Assembly: GCF_002795405.1 (NCBI RefSeq)
Contig: NZ_PHGZ01000007.1
Location: forward strand, 1-64,000
DNA length: 64,000 bases
Origin: Caviibacterium pharyngocola
GTDB lineage: Bacteria > Pseudomonadota > Gammaproteobacteria > Enterobacterales > Pasteurellaceae
Reading direction: 5' to 3'
Below, piece by piece: positions 7,565-39,428 of this stretch. The first letter of the stretch is position 1. Every line of letters begins with the position of its first letter. Both the position numbers and the translations under genes were made by a program. The notes under the pieces are model-generated. The model made no database searches. It was not told where the DNA came from and saw only the letters and a list, made by a program, of their open reading frames with translations.

Positions 7565-8622
7565 GTGCGACAAGTGTCGTGCTTACTGGGAATAAGTCCT
7601 TATATATCAAGGACTTATTCTCTGAAAGAGAGCAGTATTCTTATTGCTTTCTTTCGACTATTCAATATCTCACGAGAGATAATTGGGTAGGCAGACTAGA
7701 GACGGAGCGTTGCTCAAGATCTAGTTCTAAGTTGGGGAAGACGATTTCCAACTTTATGCGGTAATAAGGTATGATCTTCACTCTGAGGTACTCAACTACG
7801 TTGTACGAGGGAGTTTGAGGAGAGTAAGAAAGCAAGATCCGTTATCGAAAGATATTACTACCGTTAGTCGCCTGCTTTAAGTAGAGTGGCTTGGGTCAGA
7901 TCCAAAACGTAATATTGTCCATAAAGAATAATCGTGCAACCTACTATAAATAAAGTCCCAAAGGCTTATAGCATTCTGAGAGAAGCCGAAAGTAAGGAAG
8001 TGGAATTTCTTATGATCGAATGTATCCTTTACTACTTATCTTTACTTAGGGATGTTCCTACAAGGAAGTACCCATTGTAGCTTGAAATTGATAGCTACCC
8101 GTAAATGGCTTGCGGTAACAGCACGGCTATTTTTCGGCTCAAATTTACCTAAACTTGTATCCAGTAATCTTACTTATCTATACCTATAAATAGACTGATC
8201 ATCTATCTATTTGCATAGCTATAGGTTCGATCTATCTGATATTAAGTGGTTAATTTACAAAGTAATTTAGTAATAAATTGCAAAAGGTAAGTTTTAAAGC
8301 AACAGCAAGGGCTTATTTATGATAATTAGGTACTCACTTAGATAAGTATGAGTAAGCTGTTATTACTATTGTTACAATCTAGTTAATGGTAGATATACTT
8401 AGTTACCAATAAATAGATGAGTGTAACCTGTTATATGACTAACAGTAACCTAGGGATAGTGCATTACTGGCAACGGCAATGTGCGGAGCTTCCTGACAAT
8501 GTACCCCCTGTACAGGTTATTAACATTGTGAAATGTTAATAAGATACTCGGAACGACCACTGGGTTGAGGGGCTAGGTTGAATAGAAAGATAAACGTAAG
8601 TGAACAGTCGTAATTCTCGTTA

Positions 8623-10887: not shown

Positions 10888-10905
10888 CAGTTAATAGAAA
10901 GGCTT

Positions 10906-10980
10906 GAGCTGTATGCAGAGAAATTTGCTTGTACAGTTCTTAGGGGGCTGAGTGGTAGTAATACCACTTGGCTACCCGAT
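10906..10980 (+). other. Intron domains V and VI with 3' splice site
   Basis: Domain V is the 34-base hairpin 10906-10939, beginning GAGCTGTA and closing TACAGTTC, with the catalytic AGC triad near its 5' side. Domain VI follows as an imperfect hairpin (stem GTGGTA/TACCAC) and leaves A10974 as the likely branch point. The intron ends at T10980. Confidence 0.85.
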
Positions 10981-13895: not shown

Positions 13896-13910
13896 TGAGA
13901 ATAATTCTCA
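13896..13910. promoter_or_regulatory. Fur box upstream of nrdD
   Basis: TGAGAATAATTCTCA is a perfect 7-1-7 palindrome that differs from the Fur consensus TGATAATNATTATCA by one symmetrical change per arm. It lies 18 bases downstream of the CRP/FNR-like site. Confidence 0.6.
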
Positions 13911-14011: not shown

Positions 14012-14059
14012 TATCTATATATAGTGTGCCTCATTATTTTAAAACACAACATATGGTCA
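14012..14059. promoter_or_regulatory. Pair of NrdR boxes before nrdD
   Basis: TATCTATATATAGTGT (14012-14027) and ACACAACATATGGTCA (14044-14059) resemble the NrdR box ACACNATATATWGTGT, the first strongly in its right half and the second in its left half. Their centres are 32 bases apart, the helical spacing usual for NrdR pairs. They lie immediately upstream of the nrdD start. Confidence 0.55.
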
Positions 14060-14067
14060 TACATAAA

Positions 14068-16194
14068 ATGGGTACTTTCTTTGTTATCAAACGCGACGGT
14101 TCGCGCATTGTTTTTGAAATTCAACGTATTATCAACGCCATTAAAAAAGCGGCGTTGGCGGTCGGTATCAACGATGATCGTTATTGCTACAGTATCGGTC
14201 AACAAGTTTGCGACGAAATCTTTACGCATCATCAGCAAGAAATCGACATTAGCCGTATTCAGCAAATCGTTGAAAATCATTTAATGTCAAGCCAATATCC
14301 GCAAATCGCCCGCGCATATATCGAATATCGCCACGACAGAGATTTGGCGCGCGAAAAACGTAGCAATTTAACCAAAGAAATCGAAGGTTTGATTGAGCAA
14401 AGCAATGTGGAATTGTTGAATGAAAACGCTAATAAAGACGCGAAAGTGATTCCGACCCAACGGGATTTGCTCGCCGGTATCGTGGCGAAACATTATGCCA
14501 AACGCCATATTTTGCCGCGTGATGTAGTCGAGGCACACGAAAAAGGCGAAATTCATTATCACGATTTGGATTATGCGCCGTTTTTCCCAATGTTTAACTG
14601 TATGTTGGTCGATTTAAAAGGAATGCTCACCAGCGGATTTAAAATGGGCAATGCCGAAATCGAACCGCCGAAATCCATCGGCACGGCAACCGCCGTCACC
14701 GCACAAATTATCGCGCAAGTCGCCAGCCATATTTACGGCGGCACAACCATAAACCGCATTGACGAAGTATTGGCGCCTTATGTGCAATTAAGCTATGAAA
14801 AGCATTTGAAAACCGCCGAACAATGGCACATTCCCGATGCGAAAGCCTATGCCGACGCGTTAATCGAAAAAGAATGTTTCGACGCTTTTCAATCCTTAGA
14901 ATATGAAGTCAACACGCTACATACGTCAAACGGACAAACTCCTTTCGTCACTTTCGGATTCGGTTTGGGCACTACTTGGCAACAACGTTTGATTCAACAA
15001 TCCATTTTACGCAATCGTATTCGCGGCTTAGGGCGCAATCATAAAACGCCGGTTTTCCCGAAATTAGTGTTCACCATTAAAAAAGGCGTCAACCAAAGCA
15101 AAACGGATCCGAATTACGATATTAAACAACTCGCCTTGGAATGCGCGTCGAAACGGATGTATCCGGATATTTTAAATTATGATCAAGTGGTGAAAGTCAC
15201 CGGTTCCTTTAAAGCGCCGATGGGTTGCCGCAGCTTTTTGGGCGCTTACCAAGAAAACGAGGAATTCGTTCACGACGGGCGCAATAACTTAGGCGTCGTC
15301 AGCGTGAATTTACCGCGTATCGCCTTGGAGGCCAAAGGCGACGAAGCGACATTCTATGCGTTGCTCGATCAACGTTTAGCGATTGCGAAAAAAGCCTTGA
15401 TGACACGCATTGCCCGCTTGGAAAATACCAAAGCGCGCGTGGCACCGATTTTATATATGGAAGGAGCGTGCGGCGTGCGTTTGAAAGCGGACGATAATAT
15501 CGCGCAAATCTTCAAAAACGGACGCGCCTCCATTTCCTTGGGTTATATCGGTATTCACGAAACAATTAACGCGCTTTATGGCAATCGCCATATTTACGAC
15601 GATGAATTACTACGTCAAAAAGGAGTGGAAATCGTCAAATATCTCAGCGACGCCACAATTCGCTGGAAACAAGAAACCAGCTATGCTTTCAGTTTATATT
15701 CCACACCGAGCGAAAATCTCTGTGATCGTTTCTGCCGTTTGGATACCAAAACATTCGGTGTAATCGACGGCGTCACCGATAAAGGTTACTACACCAACAG
15801 CTATCATTTGGACGTTGAGAAAAAAGTCAATCCTTACGATAAACTGGATTTCGAGATGCCTTATCCGCCGCTTGCCAGCGGAGGATTCATCTGTTACGGC
15901 GAATACCCGAATATTCAACATAACTTAAAAGCCTTAGAGGACGTTTGGGATTACAGCTATGATCGCGTACCTTATTACGGCACTAACACGCCGATCGACG
16001 AATGCTACGAATGCGGCTATACCGGCGAATTTGAGTGTACAAGCAAAGGCTTTACCTGCCCGAAATGCGGCAATCACGACAGTGAAAAAGTCTCGGTGAC
16101 ACGTCGTGTCTGCGGTTATTTAGGCAGTCCGGATGCACGTCCGTTCAACGCCGGCAAACAGGAAGAAGTTAAACGCCGTGTGAAACATATGTAA
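14068..16194 (+). CDS. nrdD: Anaerobic ribonucleoside-triphosphate reductase NrdD
   Basis: This class III reductase makes dNTPs from NTPs without oxygen, using a glycyl radical. An N-terminal ATP-cone (about 1-95) precedes the catalytic barrel. The zinc site CYECGYTGEFEC...CPKCG and the glycyl-radical motif RVCGYLGS (Gly at about 683) are at the C-terminus. The ATG at 14068 gives 708 residues and the family N-terminus (GTFFVIKRDG). An in-frame start at 14026 would overlap the NrdR boxes and is unlikely. It is followed by its activase gene nrdG. Fur-, FNR/CRP- and NrdR-like sites lie upstream. Confidence 0.96.
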   Translation: MGTFFVIKRDGSRIVFEIQRIINAIKKAALAVGINDDRYCYSIGQQVCDEIFTHHQQEIDISRIQQIVENHLMSSQYPQIARAYIEYRHDRDLAREKRSNLTKEIEGLIEQSNVELLNENANKDAKVIPTQRDLLAGIVAKHYAKRHILPRDVVEAHEKGEIHYHDLDYAPFFPMFNCMLVDLKGMLTSGFKMGNAEIEPPKSIGTATAVTAQIIAQVASHIYGGTTINRIDEVLAPYVQLSYEKHLKTAEQWHIPDAKAYADALIEKECFDAFQSLEYEVNTLHTSNGQTPFVTFGFGLGTTWQQRLIQQSILRNRIRGLGRNHKTPVFPKLVFTIKKGVNQSKTDPNYDIKQLALECASKRMYPDILNYDQVVKVTGSFKAPMGCRSFLGAYQENEEFVHDGRNNLGVVSVNLPRIALEAKGDEATFYALLDQRLAIAKKALMTRIARLENTKARVAPILYMEGACGVRLKADDNIAQIFKNGRASISLGYIGIHETINALYGNRHIYDDELLRQKGVEIVKYLSDATIRWKQETSYAFSLYSTPSENLCDRFCRLDTKTFGVIDGVTDKGYYTNSYHLDVEKKVNPYDKLDFEMPYPPLASGGFICYGEYPNIQHNLKALEDVWDYSYDRVPYYGTNTPIDECYECGYTGEFECTSKGFTCPKCGNHDSEKVSVTRRVCGYLGSPDARPFNAGKQEEVKRRVKHM

Positions 16195-27430: not shown

Positions 27431-27514
27431 TACATCACTTTTTAAAAATTTAGGAAATTATGACCGCACTTTAAAAAAGAAATACGACGGCACAAAGCAA
27501 AACGCCTTGTTTTT

Positions 27515-27530
27515 GCGTAGCGGATCGCAA
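27515..27530 (-). promoter_or_regulatory. CRP-S (Sxy-dependent) competence site
   Basis: TGCGT-AGCGGA-TCGCA matches the CRP-S form TGCGA-N6-TCGCA with one mismatch. It is 85 bases upstream of comN, with a possible -10 GTATTT on the minus strand near 27481-27486. CRP-S sites define the Pasteurellaceae competence regulon. Confidence 0.72.
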
Positions 27531-27606
27531 AAATAAATAAAATTGCCGCAAAAATCTTTAATAGGAATGAATCAATAAATAAAAGAGAAATTTAAGAGGA
27601 AATCAT

Positions 27607-27681
27607 TGGTGGGTCGTGAGAGATTCGAACTCTCGACCAACGGATTAAGAGTCCGCTGCTCTACCACTAAGCTAACGACCC
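27607..27681 (-). tRNA. tRNA-Lys (anticodon CTT)
   Basis: A full cloverleaf folds from the minus strand: acceptor GGGTCGT/ACGACCC, anticodon loop CTCTTAA and T loop TTCGAAT, with encoded CCA. The D loop is one base shorter than in the three neighbours, and the T stem is GAGAG instead of GAAGG. Confidence 0.93.
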
Positions 27682-27705
27682 GCAAAAGGGAATGTTACAA
27701 TTAAG

Positions 27706-27781
27706 TGGTGGGTCGTGAAGGATTCGAACCTTCGACCAACGGATTAAAAGTCCGCTGCTCTACCGACTGAGCTAACGACCC
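27706..27781 (-). tRNA. tRNA-Lys (anticodon TTT), copy 1
   Basis: A 76-base tRNA with anticodon loop CTTTTAA, D arm AGCTCAGTCGGTAGAGC, T arm GAAGGTTCGAATCCTTC and encoded CCA. It is identical to the next two genes. Confidence 0.96.
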
Positions 27782-27803
27782 ATAAGGGAATATTTCGATT
27801 AAG

Positions 27804-27879
27804 TGGTGGGTCGTGAAGGATTCGAACCTTCGACCAACGGATTAAAAGTCCGCTGCTCTACCGACTGAGCTAACGACCC
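27804..27879 (-). tRNA. tRNA-Lys (anticodon TTT), copy 2
   Basis: Identical in sequence to the flanking tRNA-Lys(TTT) copies and separated from them by similar 22-24-base spacers (AAGGGAAT...TTAAG), which points to tandem duplication. Confidence 0.96.
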
Positions 27880-27901
27880 AAAAGGGAATGTTACGATTAA
27901 G

Positions 27902-27977
27902 TGGTGGGTCGTGAAGGATTCGAACCTTCGACCAACGGATTAAAAGTCCGCTGCTCTACCGACTGAGCTAACGACCC
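27902..27977 (-). tRNA. tRNA-Lys (anticodon TTT), copy 3
   Basis: The promoter-proximal gene of the four-gene array; identical to copies 1 and 2, with encoded CCA. Confidence 0.96.
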
Positions 27978-28006
27978 GCAAACATATTGCTTCGTAACGG
28001 AGGCTT

Positions 28007-28034
28007 ATAATACTGGTTTTATTTTAATAATCAA
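28007..28034 (-). promoter_or_regulatory. Promoter of the tRNA-Lys array
   Basis: On the minus strand -35 TTGATT (28029-28034), 16 bases and -10 TATTAT (28007-28012) lead into a G/C-rich start region, about 25 bases before the first tRNA. Confidence 0.6.
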
Positions 28035-28109
28035 TAAAAATTTTCACTTTTTTGTCTATTTGACTGAATCCTCACCAAATCATCAGATTCCTCTGATGAG
28101 AATTTGATG

Positions 28110-28147
28110 AGAAAAAACAAAAACCGGGCTTTCCAACCCGGTTTTTA
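28110..28147 (-). terminator. Terminator downstream of pal
   Basis: AACCGGG/CCCGGTT stem (28122-28142), followed on the minus strand by TTTTTGTTTTTTC. A second perfect small hairpin, CATCAGA-TTCC-TCTGATG, lies just beyond at 28081-28098. Confidence 0.88.
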
Positions 28148-28173
28148 ACACATACTACGTTAAAATCGTTAAA

Positions 28174-28638
28174 TTAGTATGCTAACACTGCACGACGGTT
28201 TTTCGCGTATGCCGCTTCATCGTGACCTAATTCAGCCGGTTTTTCTTCACCGTAAGAAACGGTTGAAACTTGACCTGCTTGAACGCCTTTAGCAGCTAAG
28301 AAGTTTTTAACTGCATCTGCACGACGTTGACCTAATGCGATGTTATATTCAGGTGTACCGCGTTCGTCGGTGTTACCTTCAACAACTACTTTAGATGCCG
28401 GAGTTGCATTTAAGTATGCTGCGTGTGCATCTAAGATTTGTTCATATTCGCCTTCGATGTTGTATTTATCGAAACCGAAATAAACGGTGTTATAACGTTG
28501 TTGTAAATCTTGAACGGAATAACCGCCGAATGTTTGACCGTTTGCTGCGTCAGCGCTTGAATCGGTTTTTGATGAACCACAAGCTGCTAATACTGCTACT
28601 GAGCCAGCTACTACTAATAATTTTGCAAAGTTTTTCAT
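28174..28638 (-). CDS. pal: Peptidoglycan-associated lipoprotein Pal
   Basis: This 154-residue outer-membrane lipoprotein (the P6 antigen of Haemophilus) ties the outer membrane to peptidoglycan and works with TolB. The signal peptide ends in the lipobox LAAC (Cys20). The C-terminal OmpA-like peptidoglycan-binding domain contains [20 protein letters not shown]. It closes the tolQRAB-pal run. The gene that usually follows, cpoB (ybgF), is missing; a terminator and tRNA genes are there instead. Confidence 0.97.
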
Positions 28639-37124: not shown

Positions 37125-37664
37125 TTATTCTTCCAAAATAACTTTACCGATATAGCCTAAATTACGGTGTCTTTGCGCATAATCAATACCGTATCCCACT
37201 ACAAATTCGTCCGGAATAGTAAAACCGACCCAATCCACCGGCACTTCCACCTCACGGCGGGAAGGCTTATCCAATAAAGTACAAATTGCCAACGACGCCG
37301 GATCGCGCAATTTCAAAATTTCACGCACTTTTTGCAACGTATAACCCGTATCAATAATATCCTCGACGATTAACACGTGTTCGTCTTTAATATCACCATC
37401 AAGATCTTTGCTGATTTTGACATCGTGGTTGGTCGTCATACCGCTGCCGTAACTTGCCGTCGTCATAAATTCAATTTCAACGGGCAAACGAATCTCGCGC
37501 ACCAAATCCGCCATAAACATAAACGAACCGCGTAGCAACCCGACGACGATTAATTTTTCAATTTGTTTATGTTGATAAAACTGAGTGATTTCCTGCCCTA
37601 ATTCTTGAATACGGGAACGTGTATCTTGTTCGGAAATCAAAATTTCAACGTGATGTTTTTTCAT
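37125..37664 (-). CDS. hpt: Hypoxanthine phosphoribosyltransferase
   Basis: This 179-residue enzyme salvages hypoxanthine (and guanine less well) to IMP/GMP using PRPP. The PRPP-binding motif [16 protein letters not shown] and the C-terminal [21 protein letters not shown] base-binding segment are typical of bacterial Hpt. It is transcribed alone, downstream of the putative sRNA terminator. Confidence 0.95.
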
Positions 37665-37707
37665 TTAACTAAACCTTTTAGGTGATTGAGATTTTACTTA
37701 TTGTAAC

Positions 37708-37866
37708 AAAAAAAAGGCTGAAGTTTAAACCTCAGCCTTTTAAATACCCTAACGAATTTACTTTCTACTCTACTTGTTCGGAGTACCAAAAATGTTTCGA
37801 TATACATAGCCTACTGCAGGCAGGCGTTGTGAAATCAATTCATTTCCACTGCAATACTGCACAAAC
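37708..37866 (-). ncRNA. Putative Fur-controlled small RNA (RyhB/HrrF-like class)
   Basis: About 159 bases run from the predicted start near 37866 to the T8 end of a strong terminator (GGCTGAGG...TTCAGCC stem, 37716-37737). Upstream lie a near-consensus promoter and an overlapping Fur box. The transcript has no credible ORF. It can fold a 5' hairpin (GCGTT/AACGC arms enclosing GTGGAAAT/ATTTCAC) and GCCT-GCAGT-AGGC, leaving a linear middle. Fur-box-driven, terminator-ended, noncoding RNAs of this size are typical of RyhB-class iron-sparing regulators; identity with Haemophilus HrrF was not checked. Confidence 0.68.
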
Positions 37867-37872
37867 GCGCTC

Positions 37873-37915
37873 ATTTTAGCAAAATACGAATTATTGTCAA
37901 TAAGAATTATTCTCA
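37873..37915 (-). promoter_or_regulatory. Promoter and Fur box of the putative sRNA
   Basis: On the minus strand -35 TTGACA (37895-37900), a 16-base spacer and -10 TAAAAT (37873-37878) form a strong promoter. Abutting the -35, TGAGAATAATTCTTA (37901-37915) fits the 7-1-7 Fur consensus at 11 of 14 defined positions. Fur bound there would block RNA polymerase. Confidence 0.72.
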
Positions 37916-37923
37916 TTTAAAAA

Positions 37924-39279
37924 CTAATTACCGGAAATCTTCATTTTCTCCAATAAAATCGAACCGGTTTGAATATTAGAGCGGGTTTCCACATCATCGG
38001 CAACGGCAACAATATTACCCAACATTGTTTTAAGCTGACCGGCAATGGTAATTTCCGCTACTGGATATTGAATTTCACCGTTTTCCACCCAAAATCCCGC
38101 CGCGCCGCGCGAATAATCGCCGGTGACTAAATTCACGCCTTGGCCCAAGAGATCCGTCACCAACAATCCCGTTCCCATTTCACGCAAAAGTGCGGTCAAT
38201 CCGCCGGAAAAATTCGCTTTTACCAACCAATTATGAATCCCGCCGGCGTGACCGGTGCTCTGCATTCCCAATTTTTTTCCGCTATAAGAAGTCAACAAAT
38301 AGGTTTGTAACACACCTTGTTCAATAATATCGCGCGAAACCGTTCGCACGCCTTCGCTATCAAAAGGCGAAGACGCCAACTGCCCGATCAAATGCGGTCG
38401 TTCACTGATATGAAACCAATCCGGCAATACTTGTTTACCCAAATGATCCAATAAAAAACTGGATTTTCGATATAAACTGCCGCCGCTCACCGCCGCCGCC
38501 AAATGCCCGATTAATCCCGTCGCCACATCGTTAAGAAAAATCACCGGCACTTCTTGCGTCGCAATTTTTTGCGGTTGCAAACGCGCCAAGGTTTTTTGCG
38601 CACTGTTTTCGCCGACCCATTTCGGCGCGGAAAGCTTGTCAAAACGACGCGAAATCGTATATTCATAATCGCGTTCCAACTGTTCATCCGCCCCGCCGAT
38701 GACCGAACAAGATAACGAATATCGACTGGATAAATAACTCTGCAACATCCCGTAAGTGTTTCCATACACCCGCACACCGGTATGGGAATTAAACGCCGCC
38801 CCTTCGCTATTCACGATGCGTTTATCATAATCCAAGGCATAGCGTTCCGTTTCCAATGCCAAATCCACCGCCTGATCCACATCGATTTCCGCCGCGTGAT
38901 ACAAATCCAAATCTGGCGCCTCAAACGCCATTAATTCCCGCTCCGCCAATCCCGCACATTCATCGGGCGAACTATATTGCGCAATCGCCAACGCCGCTTC
39001 CACCGCACTTTTCACCGCCTCGCGACTTAAATCCGACGTGGACGCATTACCTTTACGCCGATTGGAATAAACCGAAATACCTAACGCGCCGTCATTATTA
39101 AATTCAATGTTTTCCACTTCTTGCAAACGCGTCGAAACCGATAAACCGCTCACTTTCGTCACCGCCACTTCCGCTTCCGCACCGGCTTTCTGCGCGATCT
39201 CCACCGCATAAGCCACCGCTTCACGCAGTTCTTGTTCTTGTTGTTTTAAAAGTGCGGTCGGATTTTGTTGATTTTTCAT
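37924..39279 (-). CDS. pmbA: Metalloprotease PmbA (TldE)
   Basis: This 451-residue protein is the TldE partner of the TldD/TldE protease that degrades unstructured peptides. The family fold is evident: N-terminal GAEAEVAV and [16 protein letters not shown], the later PFDSEGVRT, and [16 protein letters not shown] near the C-terminus. PmbA itself lacks the TldD zinc motif, as expected. The ATG at 39279 has AAGGA upstream; an earlier codon at 39297 is disfavoured. It is divergent from yjgA, the same neighbour as in E. coli. Confidence 0.95.
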
Positions 39280-39428
39280 TGTCGTCCTTTTGGTCAAATA
39301 TAAATTCTTTGATATTTTAGCCTATTTTCAAATCGCCCGCTAATACCAATGGTGTCACGTTTCGGCAAACATTGAATTTTATGATAAACTAGTCGGTAAT
39401 TTGATTCGGATAGCAACAGGATAAAACA

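Follow-up and report, generated by a model that had tools for sequence, protein, structure and literature searches.

An hrrF orthologue with a long 5' domain between pmbA-like and hpt-like genes of a Pasteurellaceae bacterium

The small RNA HrrF is known from nontypeable Haemophilus influenzae (strain 86-028NP), where, according to the accessible part of the report (PMC4144887), its gene lies between pmbA and hpt and is transcribed from a start 63-65 bp after the pmbA stop codon. The same text describes Fur boxes just upstream of the gene, the first of which is needed for Fur control, and bases this control on Fur pull-down, Fur-box scrambling and Northern blots with a chelator and a fur mutant. 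HrrF rises on iron chelation, is stable independently of Hfq, lowers modABC and raises asnA, asnC and nrdB; it is given as ~97 nt long in most organisms and ~126 nt in more distant Pasteurellaceae, and as having no sequence similarity to RyhB (PMC4144887, same portions). A read-through form of ~260 nt, hrrFL, exists in some H. influenzae strains. In Aggregatibacter actinomycetemcomitans, the available portion of a second study (PMC5156373) reports a homologue that goes up in iron restriction and whose promoter is bound by Fur, with asparagine synthesis as a predicted target. The name 'HrrF' was not found by text search in studies of Hfq in Histophilus somni and Actinobacillus pleuropneumoniae.

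Here, we analysed a window of 64,000 nucleotides from another member of the family, whose genome was the sole representative of its genus label in the set of 140 family genomes searched. On the minus strand, a pmbA-like gene (37924-39297, an ORF of 457 aa) is followed by an hpt-like (hypoxanthine phosphoribosyltransferase-like) gene (37125-37664, 179 aa), the names being taken from the original prediction and from the synteny described in PMC4144887 rather than from a family search. The hpt-like ORF is 73-90% identical to those of 40 records named Pasteurellaceae (loci L024-L063). The original prediction had placed a Fur-repressed small RNA between these genes and proposed comparing it with Rfam and HrrF; that comparison returned RF02728 (HrrF) at 37710-37868 on the minus strand, covering the full model (1-116) with an E-value of 5.9e-12 in the window and 2.8e-14 in a short stretch (37650-37960). 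The score of 77.8 bits barely exceeds the cut-off of 77, probably because the 5' domain is longer and different. In addition to this match, the element lies on the same strand as the two genes, has a Fur box and contains the core unbroken, corresponding to positions 29-64 of H. influenzae HrrF; its predicted start is the 57th base past the pmbA-like stop. Judged from these sequence features, we are nearly certain that the element is a Pasteurellaceae hrrF gene, predicted to be Fur-controlled and to yield an RNA of ~160 nt in iron starvation, which upholds the proposal of a Fur-repressed small RNA at this place.

The HrrF family and its locus have already been described, and the window copy is an orthologue in another Pasteurellaceae member. 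The analysis adds to this the length of the 5' domain, the covariation support for its basal helix and a possible overlap of terminator and promoter; the window contributes one more HrrF lineage, whose 5' domain exceeds in length all others read. The sequence data show family membership, synteny, the conserved Fur box and promoter, the covarying helix and the conserved core, from which we infer both expression and Fur control of hrrF for this strain and a pairing role for the core. The element shares with H. influenzae HrrF the pmbA-hpt locus, a Fur box by the promoter, the core and the terminator, but differs from it in length (~160 nt against ~97 or ~126 nt) and in the sequence of the 5' domain. 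Three A. actinomycetemcomitans loci (L029, L033 and L034) have the same layout as the window, but their predicted RNAs are 134 nt long and their 5' hairpin is shorter. To RyhB of Escherichia coli the likeness is one of outline, both being of the Fur-repressed kind made in iron starvation, and the label 'RyhB-class' used in the original prediction holds only for this regulatory logic: RyhB was absent from the six Rfam matches at E <= 1 in 37650-37960, and homology with it was rejected.

Among the 140 family genomes, 109 had an RF02728 match at E <= 0.01, an upper figure, since the weak ones include opposite-strand matches to the terminator palindrome and matches at other places, and 62 passed the cut-off; none of 14 control genomes matched. 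The core 15-mer AGTAAATTCGTTAGG was found in 79 of the 140 genomes, once in each, and a believable core was seen in none of 40 hpt loci taken from non-Pasteurellaceae records (L064-L103), which yielded a single match with seven errors (L071). With 159 bases, the window match was the longest of 75 RF02728 matches of at least 50 bits, the next being 152. An opposite-strand HrrF match of 23.8 bits was dropped as the terminator palindrome, and two weak hits, one from another family of the order (L021) and one a second hit in a genome already represented (L023, G016), were not counted as HrrF as they have no core. A phage origin was also set aside, the hpt-pmbA region being without a match in phage records by megablast. 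Neither a plasmid search with positions 27500-28500 of the window nor a viral-contig scan with hpt, which gave one hit at 63% identity, produced anything useful.

The Fur-box-like 7-1-7 palindrome TGAGAATAATTCTTA (37901-37915, minus strand) stands directly next to the hrrF promoter (37873-37900), which consists of TTGACA (37900-37895), a spacer of 16 bases and TAAAAT (37878-37873) and has 11 of 12 promoter matches, as had been noted originally. The promoter scan alone was unexceptional, with 3 found against 2.9 expected in a 1.4-kb region, and the palindrome has three mismatches to the 7-1-7 consensus, a quality reached by 14 sites in the window against 7.4 expected, so that the box taken by itself is weak and would not stand out in the window. 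What raises it above chance is conservation of the box positions across relatives, together with the Rfam match of the transcript as a whole. Among 41 distinct promoter regions from the fetched loci, full invariance (2.0 bits each) was seen at box positions -15, -11 to -9, -7 to -5 and -1. Positions -18 to -16, into which a longer box would reach, carried 1.16-1.62 bits, and positions -45 to -19 carried 0.03-1.14 bits. TTGACA occurred at this place in 39 of the 41 regions, the other two having TTTACA and TTGACG. The same layout of Fur-like box and promoter, 5' hairpin, core and terminator was present in 49 of 62 loci, several of which come from the same species and are not independent (L001-L063 minus L022, which repeats the place of L001; by the search used, 13 were without it). 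The window's genome has one Fur-family gene (PF01475, E 1.1e-47).

A second Fur-like palindrome, TGAGAATAATTCTCA (13896-13910), has two mismatches, one fewer than the hrrF box. It precedes a long ORF (14026-16194) whose translation, as read, resembles the anaerobic ribonucleotide reductase nrdD; the palindrome could also be the site of another regulator.

By analogy with the H. influenzae experiments, and given the conserved site, we propose that in the presence of iron Fur-Fe(II) would occupy the box adjoining the -35 element and block the promoter, and that when iron is low Fur would leave and an RNA of ~160 nt would be made that stops at the intrinsic terminator before hpt. This RNA would comprise a 5' hairpin of varying length on a covarying helix, an almost invariant core of 28 nt as the most likely site of pairing with target mRNAs and, at its end, the terminator hairpin. 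Its predicted extent, 37708-37867 on the minus strand, was taken from the -10 element at the start and the terminator at the end. The terminator (37708-37741) has a stem of 13 pairs (37741-37712) and a run of eight T (37715-37708), confirming the strong terminator first described, and a terminator-like stem with a T run is also found in the aligned relatives. The hpt-like ORF begins at 37664, well past this point, as stated originally.

The core GTAGAGTAGAAAGTAAATTCGTTAGGGT (37746-37773, minus strand) was nearly invariant in the alignment of 40 distinct predicted RNAs from the 49 loci (L036 was cut short), and it is this near invariance that makes it the obvious candidate for the pairing region. 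Against this, the unpaired fraction predicted for the core is only ~57% on average in the window RNA, and 54-79% in the other RNAs. In four Rodentibacter loci (L044, L046, L049 and L051), the 3' part of the core is altered and promoter and terminator are kept, which may reflect a shift of HrrF targets or decay.

With 160 nt, the window RNA is the longest of the 40, the others having 93-151 nt, and its distance from start to core is 103 bases, which is 28 longer than the 75 of a Necropsobacter locus (L027), the next longest being 94. Insertion of a mobile or repeated element as the source of the additional bases was considered and rejected: the 68-base stretch that contains them is single-copy in the genome, where the only other match was one of 14 bases (E 1.78). 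The 5' hairpin domain (37774-37866, minus strand), for which the evidence is covariation, lengths and folds, is closed by a helix, P1, between the 5' end of the RNA (37866-37861) and a segment that leads into the core (37777-37772); the final two bases of this segment also belong to the core. Across the relatives this basal helix covaries. Its positions pair in 93.0% of 273 cells, against 25-48% for slid versions, four of seven pairs change on both sides, most clearly one that is C-G in 23 RNAs and U-A in 11, and the covariation score is 0.309 against 0.234 in shuffles. None of 500 shuffles reached the percentage, the number of cells changed on both sides or the score; by contrast, the count of both-side pairs (reached by 30 of 500) and the count of pair types (184 of 500) add little or nothing to the case for P1. 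In its upper part, the 5' hairpin varies freely among the RNAs. Together with its terminator, the window RNA folds at -43.1 kcal/mol (z -2.79), and 3 of 200 shuffles folded as well. With Fur box, basal helix, core and terminator constrained and the upper 5' hairpin variable, the comparison can guide which part to mutate first. At two loci (L014, at about 1513-1521, and L016), the HrrF 5' hairpin contains the 9-mer AAGTGCGGT, presumably the DNA uptake sequence of the Haemophilus type.

The unusual length of the window copy could be read as a sign that the hairpin belongs to a decaying, non-functional HrrF, all the more as P1 has one mismatch at its inner end, G37860 with A37778. We consider this very unlikely, since core, Fur box, promoter and terminator are intact in the window, and the changed cores are instead those of some Rodentibacter loci. 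A transcript on the same strand between two genes might also be a terminated by-product of the pmbA-hpt region that has no role in trans, a view that would agree with the absence of a general pairing signal at the starts of three known targets; the element's own conserved promoter and Fur box, the nearly invariant core of 40 distinct RNAs, the covarying helix and the altered target mRNA levels of an H. influenzae hrrF deletion, as given in the accessible text of PMC4144887, make it highly improbable.

That the transcript encodes a small protein has the least probability of these readings and is close to negligible. The original prediction had found no ORF between promoter and terminator, which is not literally so: there are two short minus-strand frames, one of 37 aa that starts with ATG and runs through the core of the window copy (37807-37694) and one of 48 aa (37916-37770). 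Neither looks conserved; in other respects the original coordinates and description hold. From one of the 40 RNAs to another, the longest frame shifts in position, length and start codon. At least ten of them contain none over 12 aa, and single-base indels in the core alignment disrupt any common frame.

The original prediction held that hpt is expressed independently of hrrF. A possible hpt promoter (37700-37729, minus strand; 9 of 12 matches) is made up of TTTAAA in the terminator loop, a spacer of 18 bases and TACAAT after the T run. A TANNAT hexamer within a few bases of the T run was seen by eye in 29 of 41 loci, and a hexamer scan placed 25 and 21 of the 41 in the two scan windows at this place, against 0-5 in 19 windows further on, related loci being counted apart. 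This sequence pattern suggests that an hpt promoter overlaps the hrrF terminator and speaks for independence. Against it, the -10-like hexamer after the T run is missing in 12 of the 41 loci, and the portions of PMC4144887 available report the hrrF start as the only one in the pmbA-hpt interval of H. influenzae. That the terminator doubles as part of the hpt promoter, so that transcription of hrrF couples iron to purine salvage in cis, strikes us as unlikely. If true, hrrF transcription in iron starvation would run across the hpt promoter, an effect additional to what HrrF does in trans.

From the genes that respond to HrrF in H. influenzae, the analysis took modA, asnA and a nrdB-type gene, all three of which are present in the window's genome. 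For each ORF, pairing of the core with the region between -100 and +60 relative to the first ATG was compared with that of 300 single-base shuffles. This was done at 27 of 30 fetched loci for modA (L189, which gave no ORF, L193 and L194 were out), at 15 of 30 for nrdB, where two loci (L200 and L208) have a shorter gene type that may be nrdF, and at 17 of 28 for asnA. In the HrrF genomes, pairing at these starts was no better than that of shuffled cores, except at asnA in one genome (G019), with mean z values of +0.50 for modA (10 genomes), +0.68 for nrdB (9) and -0.93 for asnA (10), the last driven by G019. In the genomes counted as being without HrrF, which include two with weak HrrF-like matches (G004 and G010) and one with a nrdB z of -3.7 (G008), the means were -0.21, -1.25 and -0.36, so that pairing at modA and nrdB was on average better there. 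In the window's genome, the core pairs at modA with -14.7 kcal/mol, which is not significant (p 0.217). The asnA leader of G019 (L240, about 2253-2284) holds an extended stretch complementary to the core (-28.1 kcal/mol, z -8.0) that was not found at asnA in the nine other HrrF genomes tested; it is a lead because, in the accessible parts of the two reports, asnA responds in H. influenzae (PMC4144887) and asparagine synthesis is a predicted target in Aggregatibacter (PMC5156373).

A wobble-tolerant antisense 17-mer had 34 hits besides the gene itself in 10 HrrF genomes, against 19 for the reversed pattern; in the 13 family genomes scored as lacking HrrF the figures were 19 and 36. Within the family, such a difference is what an excess of targets would produce, but we draw nothing from it because 14 genomes outside the family also exceed their own control (44 against 30). 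A second antisense pattern had 39 hits in the window's genome, the gene itself included, against 28. Among eight 17-mer sites inspected, no two were at the same gene, and two had no nearby ORF on that strand. As a single case, a 17-base wobble complement to the core in G007 (L314, about 1554-1570) stops immediately ahead of an ORF whose translation, as read, resembles exonuclease III.

Elsewhere in the window, the plus strand has two group II intron matches, RF02012 at 8427-8572 and RF00029 at 10904-10980, and four tRNA genes lie in a row on the minus strand (27610-27977), three of which score identically and show a 98-base spacing.
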